From positions 1 through 52,898 of the forward strand of contig CALVHX010000004.1 in NCBI GenBank assembly GCA_944329195.1: 52,898 nt of DNA, given 5' to 3'. The position numbers and the translations under genes are program-made. The DNA comes from an uncultured Bacilli bacterium (GTDB taxonomy: Bacteria; Bacillota_I; Bacilli_A; RF39; UBA660). A model generated the notes under the pieces. It was not told the DNA's origin and did no database searches. It worked only from the letters and a program-made list of their open reading frames with translations. The stretch's first letter is position 1; each line of letters opens with the position of its first letter. Shown in pieces: positions 45,280-52,898 of the stretch.

Positions 45280-46228
45280 AATGTTTTGTGATGATTAGTT
45301 TTTTGTAGAGTTTTCCTTGATATGTGTTTCTTTTGACCATTTCCTTGTCAATGTCATTGAGAACGCAAAATTTTTTTAGTAACCAATCTGGTGCTACTAA
45401 TGTGTTTTTATCTGGATCTGATGTTATACGATTGATGACAATTTTTGGATTTAATAGTTCTAATTGCTTGATTGTAATATCTATATATTCTTCTTTAGTC
45501 AAAAGATGAAATTTTTCTTTATTATACATTGTTTCTAAAGGGGTATCTTTAACGATATTTAACATATGAATTTTTATTCCTTGTATATCTAGTGTATTTA
45601 AGTGTCTTACTGTATCTAACATCATTTCTTCTGTTTCATATGGTAATCCATTAATGATGTGGACTACTACATTTATTTTTTTCTTTCTAAGTTTTTTTAC
45701 CATTTCATCAAACTCTTTTAGAGTATGACCTCTATTGATTAGTTTAGATGTTTTTTCATGAATTGTCTGAAGACCTAACTCGATAGTGAGAAATGTGATT
45801 TTATTTAAATATGCTAAATAATTTAAAGTGTCATCGGTGATAGCATCGCATCTTGTGGCGATTGATAATCCTATTACATTATCTATATTTAGGACCGTTT
45901 CATATTTTTCTTTTAATATGGAAAGGGGAGCATATGTATTGGTTCTTGCTTGAAAATAGGCGATGTATTTGCTGTTTGGCCATTTTTGGTCAATTATTTT
46001 TCTTACATCATTAAATTGTATTATTAAATCTTTATTGGGATTTCCTCCATGTTCTCCAGATCCTGTTTTCGAGCAATATATGCATCCACCATATCCTTTA
46101 GTACCATCTATATTTGGACAAGTGAATCCGGCATTTAAACTTACTTTAAAAACTTTTGAATTAAATTTGTTTTTAAAATAGTAGTTTAGTGTATGGTATC
46201 TTTTATTATCTAGTGAATATTTAAACAT
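45278..46228 (-). CDS. Radical SAM protein (TIGR01212/YtqA family)
   Basis: Iron-sulfur enzyme of 316 residues. The cluster motif is FTCPNIDGTKGYGGCIYCS with C37, C49 and C52, the longer-than-usual first spacing typical of the YhcC/YtqA group (COG1242), which also shows YFQARTNTYAP, GLSIATRCDAI, ELGLQTIHE, GLPYETEEMM and IKIHMLNIVKDTPLE. Its reaction is not established here. The ATG at 46228 has GAGGTG 6 bases upstream; a GTG three codons farther out is on that site. It converges with the flippase gene. Confidence 0.9.
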   Translation of the reverse strand: MFKYSLDNKRYHTLNYYFKNKFNSKVFKVSLNAGFTCPNIDGTKGYGGCIYCSKTGSGEHGGNPNKDLIIQFNDVRKIIDQKWPNSKYIAYFQARTNTYAPLSILKEKYETVLNIDNVIGLSIATRCDAITDDTLNYLAYLNKITFLTIELGLQTIHEKTSKLINRGHTLKEFDEMVKKLRKKKINVVVHIINGLPYETEEMMLDTVRHLNTLDIQGIKIHMLNIVKDTPLETMYNKEKFHLLTKEEYIDITIKQLELLNPKIVINRITSDPDKNTLVAPDWLLKKFCVLNDIDKEMVKRNTYQGKLYKKLIITKH

Positions 46229-46295
46229 CGATTTCACCTCGTGTAATATTGTATCATAAATGGGAAAAAATACATACTAATAATGGTGATTTTAT

Positions 46296-47375
46296 ATGAG
46301 TAATGTGAAGAAATATAATTTATTTATTTTATTTTCGACTTTAGCAAGAAATATAGTTGAGGTTTTTTCTTCTGTTATTTTATATAAGATGGGATATTCT
46401 TTTAAAGAGATACTTTTATTTTATGCTATTTTATATTTTACGGGATCTATTATTAGTACTATCGTAATATATTTGACTAAGTTTATAAAACCTAAATATA
46501 TTTTAATTATATCTAGCTTAATTTTTAGTGGGAGTTTTTATTATATGTCAGTAATGGAAAGAAGATTCTTTAATTTGGTTATTTTTGGGATTATAAATGG
46601 AATTGGTGCTTATTCATATCATGCGTTTAGGCATTATTATGCTATTAAATCTATTAATGGTCACGAAAAGAAAGAAATTGGTAGTATATTGATATTTACA
46701 AATATTGCTATGATTATTTCTTCTTTTATTGGAGCATATGTTCAGGATAAATTTTCGGTTCTCGTATTAGCTATTATGATTGTTTTAATTTCTTTAGTTG
46801 CGGTTATACCTATCTTTGGGTTTAAGAATAATATGGATAAAGATCTTATTGTGTATAAAAAAATTGAAAGAAATAAGCTCTTATTTTTTATGCTAGAACA
46901 AGCTAAAGTTATAAATTTAAGTTTGCAACCGCTATTTTTATATTTATTTATTGATGATAAAGTCACTTATGTTGGAATATTTAATGTTATCATGGGGTTA
47001 AGTGCTTGTATATTTATTTATTTTTTTGTGAGGAAAATTGATGATAAGAAGTATTTTAAGTATTTAAATATTTTATTTTGTTTATTTCTTGTTTTGAAGC
47101 TAAATATTAGTAACAAATATCTTCTTCTTTTTGTTGCTTTATTTGAAGGTTTTGGCATTAAAATGTTTGAAATTGTGTCTACGGAAAATATTTATAATAT
47201 AGATAATAATGTTAATATTAAAGGTTATCTAATAATTACTGAAATTATTTTTTGTGTTACGAGATGTATTATGTGTTTAATCTTTTATTTTATTAATGAT
47301 ATAAGAATTATTCTTTATGTGACAATTGGCTTGATATTTGCGGTCGGGTTTATTGAAAGAGAGGATGTTAAATAA
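46296..47375 (+). CDS. MFS-like membrane transporter
   Basis: Membrane protein of 359 residues with about 10-11 hydrophobic segments and short loops. An N-terminal half of five to six helices, a charged central loop (GFKNNMDKDLIVYKKIERNK, about 178-197) and a second half match the major facilitator layout. The helix-2/3 loop KFIKPKYILIISSLIFSGSF resembles but does not exactly match the MFS G-x-x-x-D-R/K motif. The size is on the short side. GGTGAT lies upstream of the ATG. Substrate and direction are unknown; it may belong to a lesser-known family. Confidence 0.6.
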   Translation: MSNVKKYNLFILFSTLARNIVEVFSSVILYKMGYSFKEILLFYAILYFTGSIISTIVIYLTKFIKPKYILIISSLIFSGSFYYMSVMERRFFNLVIFGIINGIGAYSYHAFRHYYAIKSINGHEKKEIGSILIFTNIAMIISSFIGAYVQDKFSVLVLAIMIVLISLVAVIPIFGFKNNMDKDLIVYKKIERNKLLFFMLEQAKVINLSLQPLFLYLFIDDKVTYVGIFNVIMGLSACIFIYFFVRKIDDKKYFKYLNILFCLFLVLKLNISNKYLLLFVALFEGFGIKMFEIVSTENIYNIDNNVNIKGYLIITEIIFCVTRCIMCLIFYFINDIRIILYVTIGLIFAVGFIEREDVK

Positions 47376-47396
47376 TAAAAAAGTTTAGTAAATTAA

Positions 47397-47425
47397 TTGA
47401 CTAAAGGATTTATTTAATATATAAT
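47397..47425 (+). promoter_or_regulatory. Promoter of the M23 hydrolase gene
   Basis: TTGACT at 47397-47402, 17-bp spacer, TATAAT at 47420-47425. Confidence 0.8.
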
Positions 47426-47447
47426 TGTCTTTGAAAGATGTGATAGA

Positions 47448-48638
47448 ATGAAAAAGATGATAATGTTGTTATTTTTGTTTTTAATTATTAGTATCCCTTA
47501 TGGTTTTGTAGAGGCTAAAAGTTTGAATGATTATTATAATGAACTTTCGAAACTACAAAAGCAAAAGGAGGAAGCTGATAGAAATAAAGATTTAACTGAT
47601 GCTGAAATTACTACATTAACTGATGAAGTTAATACTATTGTTTCTAATGTCAATCAGATTAAAAATGATATTAAGCAAGCTGAGGATGATATTGCTGATA
47701 GTCAGAAGAAAATAGAAGAAAAAAAGGATGAGACGAACGAATTACTCAAATTTCTTCAGATTTCTTCTGGTGAAAATGTTTATTTAGAATATATTTTTGA
47801 AGCAGACTCATACACTGATTTTATTTATAGGTATTCTGTGGTGTCACAGCTTGCGGAGTATAATAATAATTTAATGGAAGAATTAAGAAACCTTATTGTG
47901 ACTTTAGAAAGTAAAAAAGAGGAGCTTGCTACAAAGAGAAGCAGTTTGGAAGCAAAAAGTAATGAGCTAAATACGAAGATTGCGACGCTTAGAGTTAATC
48001 TTGCCAATTACAAAGAAGAAGGTACGACAATCGAAGAAGATATAAGAGACTTGAAAGATCAAATTGAGAAGTATGAAGACATGGGATGTTCTAAGAATGA
48101 AGATGTTACTGCTTGTGTTGAAAGACTTAGTAATTCAGATATTCCGATTAATGCTACTGGGTGGAATTATCCTCTGACATGGGGATGTGTGACTAGTGAA
48201 TATACTGGGTATGAAATTAGACCTGATTGGATAGGTGGTGGACACCATGGTATTGATTTGGATTGTGTAAATGAAGGCACTAACGTTTATGCTGCCGCTA
48301 ATGGAATTGTTGCTAGGGTTGTTTATTACTCTAGTTGTGGTGGAAATATGGTTTGGGTGTATCATAATGTCAATGGTGTACCTTATACAACTGTTTATAT
48401 GCATCTACTTAACATATCAGTAAGTCCTAATCAAATTGTCAGTCCTCAGACAAAAATTGGTGAGGTTGGCGGTGGGTCAACAGCTTCTTACGATGATTGT
48501 ACTGGTGGTACGCACCTTCACTTTGGAATGGCTTATGGCCACAATGCTTTTAATTTTAATAGTAATTCTTTTAATCCTAGAAACATATATAATTTTCCAG
48601 CTTTAGTTTATAGTGGTGGTGGATATTTCTCTAGGTAG
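47448..48638 (+). CDS. EnvC/NlpD-like M23 peptidase with coiled coil
   Basis: Exported peptidoglycan hydrolase or hydrolase activator, 396 residues. A signal peptide (about 1-23) precedes long coiled coils (about 25-100 and 138-212). The LytM/M23 domain follows: H266-x3-D270 in GGHHGIDLD, H319 in YMHL, and the HLHF motif with H356 and H358, so all zinc ligands are present and it may be active itself. Cysteine pairs (C214/C223, C247, C273, C297, C351) are unusual in number and may form disulfides. The layout matches the FtsEX-controlled PcsB/EnvC group that splits daughter cells. Confidence 0.88.
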   Translation: MKKMIMLLFLFLIISIPYGFVEAKSLNDYYNELSKLQKQKEEADRNKDLTDAEITTLTDEVNTIVSNVNQIKNDIKQAEDDIADSQKKIEEKKDETNELLKFLQISSGENVYLEYIFEADSYTDFIYRYSVVSQLAEYNNNLMEELRNLIVTLESKKEELATKRSSLEAKSNELNTKIATLRVNLANYKEEGTTIEEDIRDLKDQIEKYEDMGCSKNEDVTACVERLSNSDIPINATGWNYPLTWGCVTSEYTGYEIRPDWIGGGHHGIDLDCVNEGTNVYAAANGIVARVVYYSSCGGNMVWVYHNVNGVPYTTVYMHLLNISVSPNQIVSPQTKIGEVGGGSTASYDDCTGGTHLHFGMAYGHNAFNFNSNSFNPRNIYNFPALVYSGGGYFSR

Positions 48639-48720
48639 AATGTGTTTCTGTTTTGGATAGTAATTTATATTTAGAATTAATTATTATTTAATTCTTTTTT
48701 ACTTCAACGGGGAGGTATTT

Positions 48721-51033
48721 ATGGAAGGTCTTACTAAGCAAGAAGTAGAATATAGAAAAAATAATGGTTTGGTTAATAATGAAAATATTAAGTATACTAG
48801 AACGATTAAAGATATTGTTTTATCTAATAGTATAACTTTGTTTAATATTTTGAATGTCTCCCTTGCTATTCTTGTCTTAACAACGGGATCAATTCAAAAT
48901 GTTACTTTTGTTGGCACAATTATATTTAATACACTTATTGCTATTTTTCAAGAAGTGAAGGCAAAGAGAATTCTCGATAATATAAAGGTTACTAATCAAG
49001 ATAAAGTTGTAGTAATTAGAGAAGGTAAAAAAGAGGAAATTCCTAAAGAAGAAATTGTAATTGATGATTTAATGTATTTATCGTCTGGAGATAATGTGGT
49101 TGTCGATTTGGTCATTGTTAAATCTAGTAGTTTAGAGGTTGATGAATCTATTATTACTGGAGAAGCAGATGCAATTATTAAGAGAAAGAATGATAAGGTT
49201 ATATCTGGTTCGATTGTTACTAGTGGTAGTGCTTATGCTAAAGTAATAAGTATAGGTAAAAATAATTATGCTAATAATTTGATAAAAGAAGCTACGTCTA
49301 TTAAAGATAATTCTTCTTATTTACAAGGAATTATTAATAAAATATTAAAGATTGTTACGATAGTTATTGTTCCTGTGGGAATACTTCTTTTTATTAGCCA
49401 ATATTTTTATAGTAGACAGTCTTATAATGAGGCGATACTTTCGACAGTAGCGGGCATTATTGGTATGATACCGGAGGGACTTGTTCTTCTTACTTCGATT
49501 GCTTTGACTGCTGGAGTTATTAAAATGGCCAAGAAAAAGGTAATTATTCAGAAATTACATGGTATTGAAATTTTATCTTGTACTGATATATTGTGTCTAG
49601 ATAAAACAGGAACGATTACCGATGGCACTATGGAAGTTATTGATTTGATTTCTCTTGATCGACGTGTTAATATAGAAGATATTATTTCTAACATATGTAC
49701 AGAAGAAGCTAATAATGCTACTGACATAGCTCTAAAGAAAAAATTTGGAGTAAAAAATAATCTCAATGTTACCGATCGTATTCCTTTTTCTTCTTCTAAG
49801 AAGTGTAGTATTACGGAAATAGATGGTATTAAGTATTATCTTGGTGCTTTAGAATACATTGTAAATAAAAGAATTACTGATTACAAAGAACTTACTGAAT
49901 ATATAGATAATGGTAATAGAATTATTTCTGTGGTAAGGGAGAAAGATGACTTGGAAGTTCTTGCTTTTATTATCTTAAAAGACAATATAAGAAAATCTGC
50001 TAAAGAAACTTTAGAGTATTTTAAAAAACAAGATGTCGATGTTAAGATTATATCTGGTGATAATCCTATTACTGTGTCTAATATTTTGAGGCAATTAGAA
50101 ATAGATGATTATGATAAATTTGTAAGTGGACCAGATCTTCCAAACGATTATGAAAAACTAAAAGAGACGGTTAAAGATAAGAAGATATTTGGACGTGTAA
50201 CTCCTAATCAAAAGCAAATGATAATCAAAGCTTTAAAGGAAGAGCATACAGTTACGATGATAGGAGATGGAGTCAATGATATTCTTGCTCTTAAGGAAGC
50301 AGACTGTGGAATTGCTCTAGCAACTGGAATCAATGCTGCTAGAAGTGTTAGCGAAGTTGTTCTTACCGATGCTGACTTTGCCGTTTTACCTGATATTGTT
50401 AATGAAGGTAGAAGAGTTGTCAATAATATAGAGAGAGTTGCATCAATGTATCTTATAAAGACAACATATTCATTTTTGCTTTCGCTTTTGTCGATTGGTC
50501 TATCTCATGAGTATCCTTTTTATCCGATTCAGCTATCTCTTATTAGTACTTTCTGTGTTGGGCTTCCTTCGTTTTTCTTGGCACTGGAACCTAATTATAA
50601 CAAGGTTGGGAAAGATTTTATTGCTAAGGTGTTTAGAAATGCTCTTCCTAATGGGATAACTGTAGTTCTTAATGTTTTTATTGTTATTATGTTTTGTACA
50701 ATTTTCCATAAAGATTTTGAGTCATATCGATTAGTTGTAGTATCACTTACTGGTTTTGTTACTTTGAGACTTTTATATACTATTTGTAAACCTCTTAATT
50801 TGGCTAGAAATATCTTGCTGGTATTTTGTACAATATCCTTCTTTGAAGTTTTGATTTTACTTCCAAATTTATTTTTAGTATCAAGATTTAATATAGTTAG
50901 TATTATTTTTATAGCTATTTTAGGGTTTATTGATACGTATATAATAGATTTCTTGGAAGAAATGTATGATAGAATATTGTTTAAGTATAGGGATTGGAAA
51001 AATGAAAGAGAAAAAAAGAAAAAATTGGCTTAG
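48721..51033 (+). CDS. P-type cation-transporting ATPase (CtpE-like HAD-IC family)
   Basis: Ion pump of 770 residues. Actuator TGEAD at 146-150, phosphorylated D294 in CLDKTGTITDG, KIISGDNPITV, and the hinge MIGDGVNDILALKEADCGIA. The fourth-helix motif is M-I-P-E-G-L (249-254), as in calcium-type and CtpE-like pumps, not the CPC of heavy-metal pumps. About ten membrane helices: four around the actuator and six at the C-terminus. There is no N-terminal metal-binding domain. Calcium or another divalent cation is the likely cargo, by family inference. GGGGAGG precedes the ATG. Its 3' end overlaps a 38-codon membrane microprotein by 32 bases. Confidence 0.88.
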   Translation: MEGLTKQEVEYRKNNGLVNNENIKYTRTIKDIVLSNSITLFNILNVSLAILVLTTGSIQNVTFVGTIIFNTLIAIFQEVKAKRILDNIKVTNQDKVVVIREGKKEEIPKEEIVIDDLMYLSSGDNVVVDLVIVKSSSLEVDESIITGEADAIIKRKNDKVISGSIVTSGSAYAKVISIGKNNYANNLIKEATSIKDNSSYLQGIINKILKIVTIVIVPVGILLFISQYFYSRQSYNEAILSTVAGIIGMIPEGLVLLTSIALTAGVIKMAKKKVIIQKLHGIEILSCTDILCLDKTGTITDGTMEVIDLISLDRRVNIEDIISNICTEEANNATDIALKKKFGVKNNLNVTDRIPFSSSKKCSITEIDGIKYYLGALEYIVNKRITDYKELTEYIDNGNRIISVVREKDDLEVLAFIILKDNIRKSAKETLEYFKKQDVDVKIISGDNPITVSNILRQLEIDDYDKFVSGPDLPNDYEKLKETVKDKKIFGRVTPNQKQMIIKALKEEHTVTMIGDGVNDILALKEADCGIALATGINAARSVSEVVLTDADFAVLPDIVNEGRRVVNNIERVASMYLIKTTYSFLLSLLSIGLSHEYPFYPIQLSLISTFCVGLPSFFLALEPNYNKVGKDFIAKVFRNALPNGITVVLNVFIVIMFCTIFHKDFESYRLVVVSLTGFVTLRLLYTICKPLNLARNILLVFCTISFFEVLILLPNLFLVSRFNIVSIIFIAILGFIDTYIIDFLEEMYDRILFKYRDWKNEREKKKKLA

Positions 51034-51118
51034 AATAATTTGGGTGACAGGTCTTTATTTGACTTTGATAGGTATTTTGATATTGGTCGTTATTTATAAA
51101 GTAAAATACGAAGGGTAG
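51002..51118 (+). CDS. 38-residue membrane microprotein overlapping the P-type ATPase gene
   Basis: Small frame of 38 codons in the +1 phase relative to the pump gene. The protein starts with the basic MKEKKRKNWLRIIW and has one hydrophobic helix (about 11-32), ending KVKYEG. It starts inside the last 32 bases of the ATPase gene and stops 7 bases before obgE. No strong ribosome site stands before it; translation could be coupled to the pump gene end (AGGGATTGG lies nearby). Single-helix peptides regulate several P-type pumps (KdpF, phospholamban, sarcolipin), so a role as a pump partner is possible but unproven. Confidence 0.55.
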   Translation: MKEKKRKNWLRIIWVTGLYLTLIGILILVVIYKVKYEG

Positions 51119-51125
51119 TGATATT

Positions 51126-52397
51126 ATGTTTGTCGACGAAGTTGTGATGACAATTGAAGCTGGTAGCGGTGGCGATGGATGTATGGCTTACCGAAGAGAA
51201 AAATATATTCCAATGGGAGGCCCTTATGGTGGAAATGGGGGTAAAGGCTCTGATATTATATTTAAAGCTGATGGGGGACTTAAAACGTTAATTGATTTAA
51301 GATATCAAAAAAAAATAAGAGGAAATAATGGAAGCAACGGAGAAGGTAAAAATAAGAATGGTAGTAATAGTGATGATATTGTAATAAAAGTTCCTGTAGG
51401 AACTACTATTCGTGATAATGATACTGGCAGTGTTATTGCTGATCTTGTAAAAAATAATGAAGAAGCTGTTATTGCCTATGGTGGAAGAGGTGGAAGAGGA
51501 AATGTTAGCCTTGCTACTCGTAGTAATCCTTGTCCATCGTATGCTGAAAAAGGCGAACCAGGCGAAGTTAGAAACATTAAAGTAGAACTTAGAATGATTG
51601 CTGATGTTGGATTGGTTGGTATGCCATCTGTCGGTAAGAGTACTATTCTTTCGATGATATCAAATGCTAATCCAAAAATTGCCAGCTACCATTTTACTAC
51701 TTTATCTCCTAATCTAGGTGTTGTAAAAACAGAGGGTAATACTTTTGTGGTTGCCGATTTGCCAGGCCTTATCGAAGGGGCTAGTTTAGGTGTAGGACTT
51801 GGTCATAAATTTTTAAAACATATTGAGAGAACAAAAATTATCGCTCATGTCATCGATATGTCTGGTGCAGAAGGAAGAGATCCTTATGAAGATTATGTCA
51901 CTATTAGAGAGGAATTAGGAAAGTTTAGTTCAAAGTTATTATCAAAACCAGAAATAATTATTGCTAATAAGATGGATGGAGTTAATGCCAAAAATAATTT
52001 AGCTATTTTTACTGAAAAGGTCGATAATAAGAAAATCTTTGAAGTTACTGCTTTAATTAATGCTGGCTTAGATAAGGTTATCTATGAATTAGCTAAGATG
52101 ACTAAAAGTATTCAGAGGGAAGAGTTATATTCTTCTGATGTACAGGAAAGTCATGTTTTATATAAATTTAAAGCGGAGAAGCCTTTTAGCATTGTCAAAG
52201 ATAAAGATGTGTTCGTTATTAAAGGCGATGCTGTAGAAAAGTTATTTAGGATGACTAATTTTAATACAGAAGAAGCCTATGAGAGATTTTCAAATAAAAT
52301 TAGAAGAATGGGAATAGATGACGAATTAGAAAAAATGGGAATAGTAGAAGGTGATACTGTAAGAATATTTGATTTTGAGTTTGAATGGCGAAAGTAG
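51126..52397 (+). CDS. obgE: Obg family GTPase
   Basis: Ribosome-associated GTPase of 423 residues linked to 50S assembly and stress response. The Gly-rich Obg fold (1-155) starts MFVDEVVMTIEAGSGGDGCM and has the GGNGGKGSDI and GGRGGRGN stretches. The G domain has the P-loop GMPSVGKST, switch DLPGLIEGAS and NKMD. A C-terminal OCT domain (about 345-423) with VEKLFRMTNFNTEEAYERFS is present, as in most Firmicutes. GAAGGGTAGTGAT precedes the ATG. The microprotein stop lies 7 bases upstream. Confidence 0.96.
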   Translation: MFVDEVVMTIEAGSGGDGCMAYRREKYIPMGGPYGGNGGKGSDIIFKADGGLKTLIDLRYQKKIRGNNGSNGEGKNKNGSNSDDIVIKVPVGTTIRDNDTGSVIADLVKNNEEAVIAYGGRGGRGNVSLATRSNPCPSYAEKGEPGEVRNIKVELRMIADVGLVGMPSVGKSTILSMISNANPKIASYHFTTLSPNLGVVKTEGNTFVVADLPGLIEGASLGVGLGHKFLKHIERTKIIAHVIDMSGAEGRDPYEDYVTIREELGKFSSKLLSKPEIIIANKMDGVNAKNNLAIFTEKVDNKKIFEVTALINAGLDKVIYELAKMTKSIQREELYSSDVQESHVLYKFKAEKPFSIVKDKDVFVIKGDAVEKLFRMTNFNTEEAYERFSNKIRRMGIDDELEKMGIVEGDTVRIFDFEFEWRK

Positions 52398-52405
52398 TGA
52401 TTTAT

Positions 52406-52849
52406 ATGGAAATTGTTGTAGCAAAGTTAGAAGATTTAAATAGAATAAAAGAAATTTATAAAAAAATAATAAAAAATATGTATGATAATGATATTAAAAT
52501 TTGGAATGAGTATTATCCAAATGAAGTCTTTGAGTCTGATATAGAACAAGGACATCTTTATTTATTAAAAGAAAACAACAATATATTAGGAGCTTTTGTA
52601 TTATATGAACATAAAGATCTTGAAGAAGGACTAGAATGGTCAGATTGTAAAGCAAAATCTTATTTGCTAAATAGAGTTGGTGTTAATGTAGCGTATTTAC
52701 ATCAAGGAATAGGGAAAAAACTTATTGCCGAGGCGTCTAAGTTGGGACAGAAAAAAGGTGCAAACTATTTACGTTTATTAGTTAGTGATATAAATATACC
52801 CGCTATAAATTTATATTTAAAACGCTGTGTACTAGTTTGTAAGGGGTGA
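52406..52849 (+). CDS. GNAT-family N-acetyltransferase, C-terminus probably frameshifted
   Basis: Acetyl-CoA-dependent transferase of 147 residues. MEIVVAKLEDLNRIKEIYKK is a typical GNAT start, and the acetyl-CoA loop is HQGIGKKLIAEASKLGQKKG with VNVAYLHQ before it. LRLLVSDINIPAINLYLK is the usual strand-helix after it. The expected G-F of the last strand is missing and the frame stops at TGA after KRCVLVCKG. With one base inserted before the stop, reading would continue as VNSYSQHTLHKNLYQKN to the window end, which looks coding. ATG 52406 is preferred; an in-frame ATG at 52385 lies inside obgE. Substrate unknown. Confidence 0.7.
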   Translation: MEIVVAKLEDLNRIKEIYKKIIKNMYDNDIKIWNEYYPNEVFESDIEQGHLYLLKENNNILGAFVLYEHKDLEEGLEWSDCKAKSYLLNRVGVNVAYLHQGIGKKLIAEASKLGQKKGANYLRLLVSDINIPAINLYLKRCVLVCKG

Positions 52850-52898
52850 ATAGTTATAGTCAGCATACACTTCATAAAAATCTATACCAGAAGAATTT

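Follow-up and report, generated by a model that had tools for sequence, protein, structure and literature searches.

The 38-codon open reading frame (ORF) that spans the end of a P-type ATPase gene and stops just before obgE in the DNA analysed here (below called the window, a stretch of 52,898 nucleotides) is, judging by its comparison with related genomes, a real gene under strong purifying selection, and we hold with high confidence that the microprotein it encodes is a selected, helix-only descendant of a larger protein. By its similarities and genomic place the predicted microprotein is the surviving N-terminal anchor (a basic tail, one helix and an outer-face YKVKYE motif) of a single-pass membrane protein, whose long form in related genera has a further 170-280 residues that are predicted to be extracellular and is encoded directly after the same P6-type ATPase. 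Table 1 lists the features of this part of the window.

Table 1. Features of the window at and around the microprotein gene (positions are numbered from the first nucleotide of the window)
Feature	Position	Strand	Remark
M23 peptidase with PcsB-type coiled coil	47448..48638	+	Two genes upstream of the microprotein
P-type ATPase, P6/CtpE-like, 770 codons	48721..51033	+	M4 carries PEGL; the M6 Asp is absent
AGGG, putative ribosome-binding site of the microprotein gene	50989..50992	+	Within the ATPase gene
Overlap of microprotein and ATPase genes, 32 bp	51002..51033	+	3' end of the ATPase gene, different frame
Helix-only microprotein gene, 38 codons	51002..51118	+	Stop TAG at 51116-51118
Membrane helix codons, residues 12-30	51035..51091	+	From hydropathy scan and alignment with long forms
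Outer-face motif YKVKYE codons	51095..51112	+	Conserved, common to long forms
GAAGGG, putative ribosome-binding site of obgE	51110..51115	+	Coincides with the final two sense codons of the microprotein
obgE	51126..52397	+	Downstream of the microprotein gene in the window's genus

The ORF is translated as MKEKKRKNWLRIIWVTGLYLTLIGILILVVIYKVKYEG* (38 codons and then the stop). Its N-terminus is basic, a hydropathy scan finds a single helix (mean hydropathy 2.6), and the flanks of this helix carry charges of +5 on the N-side and +1 on the C-side. The stop is separated from the obgE ATG by 7 nt in the window, and the sequence at the position of the putative AGGG ribosome-binding site of the microprotein gene is GAGG or AGGAG in 10 other species. 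A longer version that starts at 50966 (50 aa) finds no support: that frame is closed there in other species of the genus, in which the conserved part of the ORF begins at the 51002 ATG. Among the other features of this region, a GNAT acetyltransferase ORF at 52385-52849 shares 13 bp with the end of obgE, no RNA families were found at 46000-52898, and a promoter and terminator scan was uninformative, with 57 promoter-like sites where 40.4 were expected.

The genus sample consisted of 11 genomes, the window's own included (one, G009, has its ATPase gene divided between two contigs). The ORF is intact in all 11, always in the order ATPase - ORF - obgE; it encodes 38-42 aa, its overlap with the ATPase gene is 20-41 bp long, and its end lies 4-9 nt before obgE. 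The start, the helix and an end of the form YKV[KE]YEG or FKV[KR]Y[EQ]G are kept throughout, the other two frames at the locus are interrupted by stops, and an alignment of 10 of the 11 sequences (two are identical) has twelve invariant columns. The original prediction of a basic, single-helix, 38-codon microprotein read in another frame across the 3' end of a CtpE-type pump gene is therefore borne out by its conservation in 11/11 genomes: both the overlap and the helix are kept in every one, and stops in close relatives, which would have spoken against it, occur in none.

Selection on the encoded amino acids was measured in the 27 codons that do not overlap the ATPase gene. There the ratio of mean pN to mean pS is 0.32, with pN less than pS in 55/55 species pairs; these values are 0.37 and 54/55 when the last 4 codons (the likely obgE ribosome-binding site) are left out. 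The same ratio is 0.85 and 2.8 in shifted-frame controls and 0.20 in the first 27 codons of obgE; a further control, on 27 ATPase codons ahead of the overlap, was left out because its codons were misaligned. Codon models gave log-likelihoods of -538.9 with omega free versus -589.7 for the best of six runs with omega = 1, and of -472.4 versus -518.9 when the last four codons are dropped (the highest of four runs with omega = 1); the free omega of 0.023 is not trustworthy as a rate since synonymous sites are near saturation.

The relatives of the microprotein reveal its ancestry as follows: when its profile was run over 291 family genomes it matched ORFs of >200 codons in other genera. These long relatives are single-pass proteins of 206-319 aa whose N-terminus is the same anchor (e.g., ..RIIWVSGIFLILIVILIAVIEYKVKFE..), and whose outer domain has a YxYxCN...C stretch in most cases, plus KYGII-type repeats. 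WG_beta_rep (PF14903) scores above its curated threshold in the outer domain of 2 of the 8 long forms tested (two G276 proteins entered this test without their first codon), a likeness to WG_beta_rep proteins; the outer domain is entirely lost in the window's gene. A single-sequence AlphaFold2 model of a long form (mean pLDDT 41.5) has only the helix predicted with confidence, at residues 1-30 (83-96 in blocks of ten). In the reverse search, a profile of ten long forms that included no microproteins had a sole match at E<=1 in the six-frame translation of the window's genome, and this was the microprotein ORF (E 5.4e-10). The outer domain, with its Cys motif and WG repeats, is missing from the microprotein gene, and relocation of that domain within the genome was rejected because the long-form profile finds it nowhere else in this 93.7%-complete assembly. 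Weak matches to the microprotein profile (E above 1e-6) that we read (L075-L079) look unrelated, and a weak second match at E 7e-6 (L101, G006:C47:5931-6008) has a frame that contains a stop.

The position of the long genes corresponds to that of the microprotein gene. They lie downstream of the orthologous ATPase in genera g85 (4 genomes), g94 (3) and g128 (2) and overlap it in 7/9 of these genomes by their ORF coordinates; in G276 the long gene begins at the base right after the ATPase, and in G101 one gene lies between. A relative of the M23 gene precedes the ATPase in all 10 loci of the window's genus that reach that far and is also upstream in g23, g85, g94, g128 and g181 loci, and the gene order M23 - ATPase - anchor gene is found with the long form in g85, g94 and g128 and with the short form in g23 and g1 (the window's genus). 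An M23/PcsB-type wall hydrolase at this place would fit an envelope theme. The microprotein matches the anchor profile and its gene has the syntenic place after the orthologous ATPase, and on these two counts it belongs to the pump-linked anchor/WG family.

Everything past the helix has been lost in the window's genus, and also in G032, a single genome from genus g23, which has a 48-residue short form at the equivalent place. There the pump and short form are together on contig C4, the next gene is not obgE, and obgE is on C23. By eye, the G032 protein retains a vestige of the segment that comes next (KYEDMMITFFKFLAYN, where G346 has KYEDGIFFNYLYFYN). Short forms thus stay with the pump despite a differing downstream gene (obgE in g1 and another in g23). 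Linkage to obgE was considered as the cause and rejected, because no such ORF is present before obgE in 19 loci of other genera, including G028, G032 and G110 from anchor-bearing genera. Were the two short forms produced by a single truncation or by two? The best ATPase trees do not unite them, but a topology that does so is also compatible with the data (p-AU 0.30), and either history would fit; the M23 tree is mostly unresolved.

The ATPase itself falls among P-type ATPases in Pfam and NCBIfam, with no passing equivalog among the matches listed, and it scores 91 bits with the kdpB model TIGR01497, whose cut-off is 527.9. Its alignment with Ca2+ pumps from the PDB places IPEGL in M4, and V at the M6 position where 8iww and 9euq have D. 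Pumps of the CtpE type, a proposed P6 group, are described in the review PMC10654040 as having PEGL and missing the M6 Asp, with Ile there in CtpE. The window ATPase has both of these features and so looks like a P6 (CtpE-type) pump; it differs from CtpE of Mycobacterium in having Val as its M6 residue, and the likeness is one of motifs only. Passages in PMC5615198 present CtpE as a Ca2+ uptake pump whose loss affects cell envelope integrity, and passages in PMC11371651 present the membrane protein CozEa as a proposed CtpE regulator in pneumococcus.

How closely does the anchor gene follow this pump? Among 386 family genomes, sampled evenly in a single draw, 15 have the close orthologous pump (at least 61% identity), and the anchor gene is present in all 15 and directly adjacent to the pump gene in 14 (the exception is G101). 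The same anchor is found in 5 of the 371 genomes without such a pump, always in long proteins; these counts are not independent because the family genomes are related. One of the five, G028, has the M23 gene and directly after it a long anchor gene (L084); the pump gene, which separates these two at other loci, was not found in its 90%-complete genome. The other four are g170 genomes, which encode a long anchor protein and have only a 40-43% pump elsewhere in the genome. Their long anchor genes (L087, L091, L136 and L137) lie away from pumps, downstream of genes for short, presumably prepilin-like proteins (NKGFAITGILYT.FIL in three and NRGFAISAILYALLIL in one). In G276 a second, diverged long anchor copy (L140, G276:C7:2698-3636) adjoins sepF, identified by a Pfam match, hinting that the wider family may serve cell-division or wall loci. 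G203, finally, whose pump is 54% identical, has both the M23 and the pump gene and no anchor gene after the pump, and in four genomes with 42-46% pumps (L013, L015, L020 and L027) the next gene after the ATPase presumably encodes a ZIP-type metal transporter.

A profile search of the family gave matches at E<=1e-5 in 96/386 genomes, most of the matches lying within the WG columns. Three with matches that start at columns 10-20 (L119, L121 and L169 in G317, G215 and G047) are membrane proteins that have a similar Cys stretch and repeat domain and a different anchor, and they represent a wider outer-domain family in other genera. An anchor-only profile matched 0/20 distant or control loci at E<0.1 (20 loci besides L140, which was in its training set; they cover part of the weak matches). 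In a class-wide search of 296 genomes, matches from other families start at column 32 or later, in the outer domain, among the matches listed.

In between-genus pairs of pump-linked long forms identity is 0.53 in the anchor versus 0.27 in the outer domain, and the anchor is the higher in 26/26 pairs. MreC, which also consists of an N-terminal anchor and an outer domain, shows the opposite in the same genera (0.44 versus 0.68, anchor higher in 0/26) and has the higher anchor in 2/149 pairs over all seven genera, although as a single control protein it is a thin yardstick. Members that are not linked to a pump, a small sample, gave 0.40 for anchor versus 0.32 for outer domain (n=4), or 0.31 versus 0.31 (n=9) when the second G276 copy is included; pairs of a linked and a non-linked member gave 0.44 versus 0.28, with the anchor higher in 41/45. 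(In this comparison two g170 rows lack a few residues at the N-terminus because of the rule used to trim starts.) The helices of the microproteins resemble pump-linked anchors (0.58) more than non-linked ones (0.41). An anchor that merely holds a domain is not expected to outlast that domain, and we therefore think the helix is the working part; its survival alone would then make sense. Because non-linked helices are also somewhat conserved, the constraint that these alignments indicate is not purely pump-specific.

The original prediction had compared the microprotein with KdpF, sarcolipin and phospholamban. It shares with KdpF the small size, the single helix and a gene beside that of a P-type ATPase, and with sarcolipin and phospholamban the nature of a single-helix small membrane peptide. 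Pfam includes models for such peptides, and one for KdpF is among those scanned; hmmscan of the microprotein against Pfam-A and NCBIfam, with E values of up to 10 admitted, gave no KdpF match, its one result being Sigma_reg_N at 0.058, which falls short of the cut-off. Neither sarcolipin nor phospholamban was matched in Pfam or PDB sequences, HMMER being weak on so short a query. Nor is the microprotein encoded with KdpB and KdpA: the pump is below the kdpB cut-off and no KdpA is among the neighbours tested. Membership in any of the three families was rejected on the lack of matches in Pfam, NCBIfam or PDB sequences, and it does not look like a stand-alone peptide of their type, the relatives of the microprotein being anchors of much larger membrane proteins; it differs from KdpF in its descent from an anchor with an outer domain, and from sarcolipin and phospholamban in being bacterial and having arisen by domain loss. 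KdpF stabilises its complex, the K+ pump KdpFABC (a P1A ATPase), according to a passage in PMC8385062. The long relatives are similar in plan to KdpC and beta subunits, which PMC10654040 describes as having a domain outside the cell: they are pump-linked, have such a domain, and could likewise be subunits. They differ in that their partner pump would be P6-like, and they gave no KdpC or beta-subunit match when searched against Pfam (E<=1) and PDB sequences (E<=10).

The linkage data bear in two directions on the originally predicted partnership with the pump. In G032 the short form accompanies the pump rather than obgE, which favours it, and five family genomes carry a larger relative without a close orthologous pump while G203 has its 54% pump without an anchor gene, which does not. 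The members without a pump speak against an exclusive pump subunit, and the linkage to the pump gene could merely reflect operon position. The main rival to a pump partner, which we consider unlikely, builds on this: the helix would serve some other envelope machine (e.g., the M23/PcsB-type hydrolase or the division apparatus), with pump adjacency being an old operon. It gains from the M23 gene that precedes the anchor gene also in pump-less G028, from the sepF neighbour of the second G276 copy and from the g170 members that are not near a pump, but it must contend with the 15/15 genomes in which the anchor gene accompanies a pump of at least 61% identity, with a start that overlaps the pump gene and with linked helices that are more alike than non-linked ones; the G203 locus, with M23 and pump and without the anchor, favours M23 no more than it does the pump.

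Two other explanations need no partner for the helix. The ORF might be mainly a device for translational coupling, by which ribosomes leaving the pump gene are handed on to obgE and whose product is of minor importance. We think this improbable: although its stop lies 4-9 nt before the obgE ATG in 11/11 genomes and its last codons contain a likely ribosome-binding site, amino-acid selection remains in both the pN/pS values and the codon model without the last four codons, and the same helix recurs in the short form of G032 and in long forms, none of which precedes obgE. It is very improbable indeed that the frame is a decaying remnant or was opened by chance, for 11 species with near-saturated synonymous sites have no stop in it and pN<pS holds in 55/55 pairs, even if the gene is indeed truncated and short frames are common locally (36 ORFs of at least 30 aa are listed in 5.9 kb).

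Taken as a whole, our preferred statement, that the microprotein is a helix-only descendant serving as a partner of the pump, is a tentative one in which we place somewhat less than even confidence, its partnership part being what we infer. The helix would be the working part and would pack against the membrane domain of the ATPase, the outer domain would have become dispensable in the window's genus and in G032, and the microprotein would be a small subunit that stabilises or tunes a pump of the Ca2+ type. The overlapping start would give coupled translation, and the peptide would thereby be made in step with the pump. Such an action within the complex would be KdpF-like and arrived at via domain loss, the microprotein being unrelated to KdpF. 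On present sequence evidence the original interpretation is partly supported, with translation of the ORF and partnership with the pump both presumed.

A broader proposal, possible but doubtful, is that in this clade the P6 ATPases are served by an accessory subunit of their own (helix plus outer Cys/WG domain, in a KdpC/beta-like layout) that has been stripped to the bare helix in this genus and perhaps independently in G032, going from beta-like to KdpF-like. No accessory subunit for P6 ATPases is named in the P6 section of the review PMC10654040 or among the literature matches listed, and the WG-repeat literature held nothing relevant among the matches listed.

What does this gene tell us? 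Here one can read the larger parent protein, the place in the genome and the helix that was kept, so that the origin of a microprotein by domain loss can be traced across genera; to our knowledge many membrane microproteins have no visible ancestry. Should the helix indeed bind the pump, P6 Ca2+-type ATPases would have in it an accessory subunit. The short and long forms together are a natural dissection of the roles of the helix and of the outer domain.
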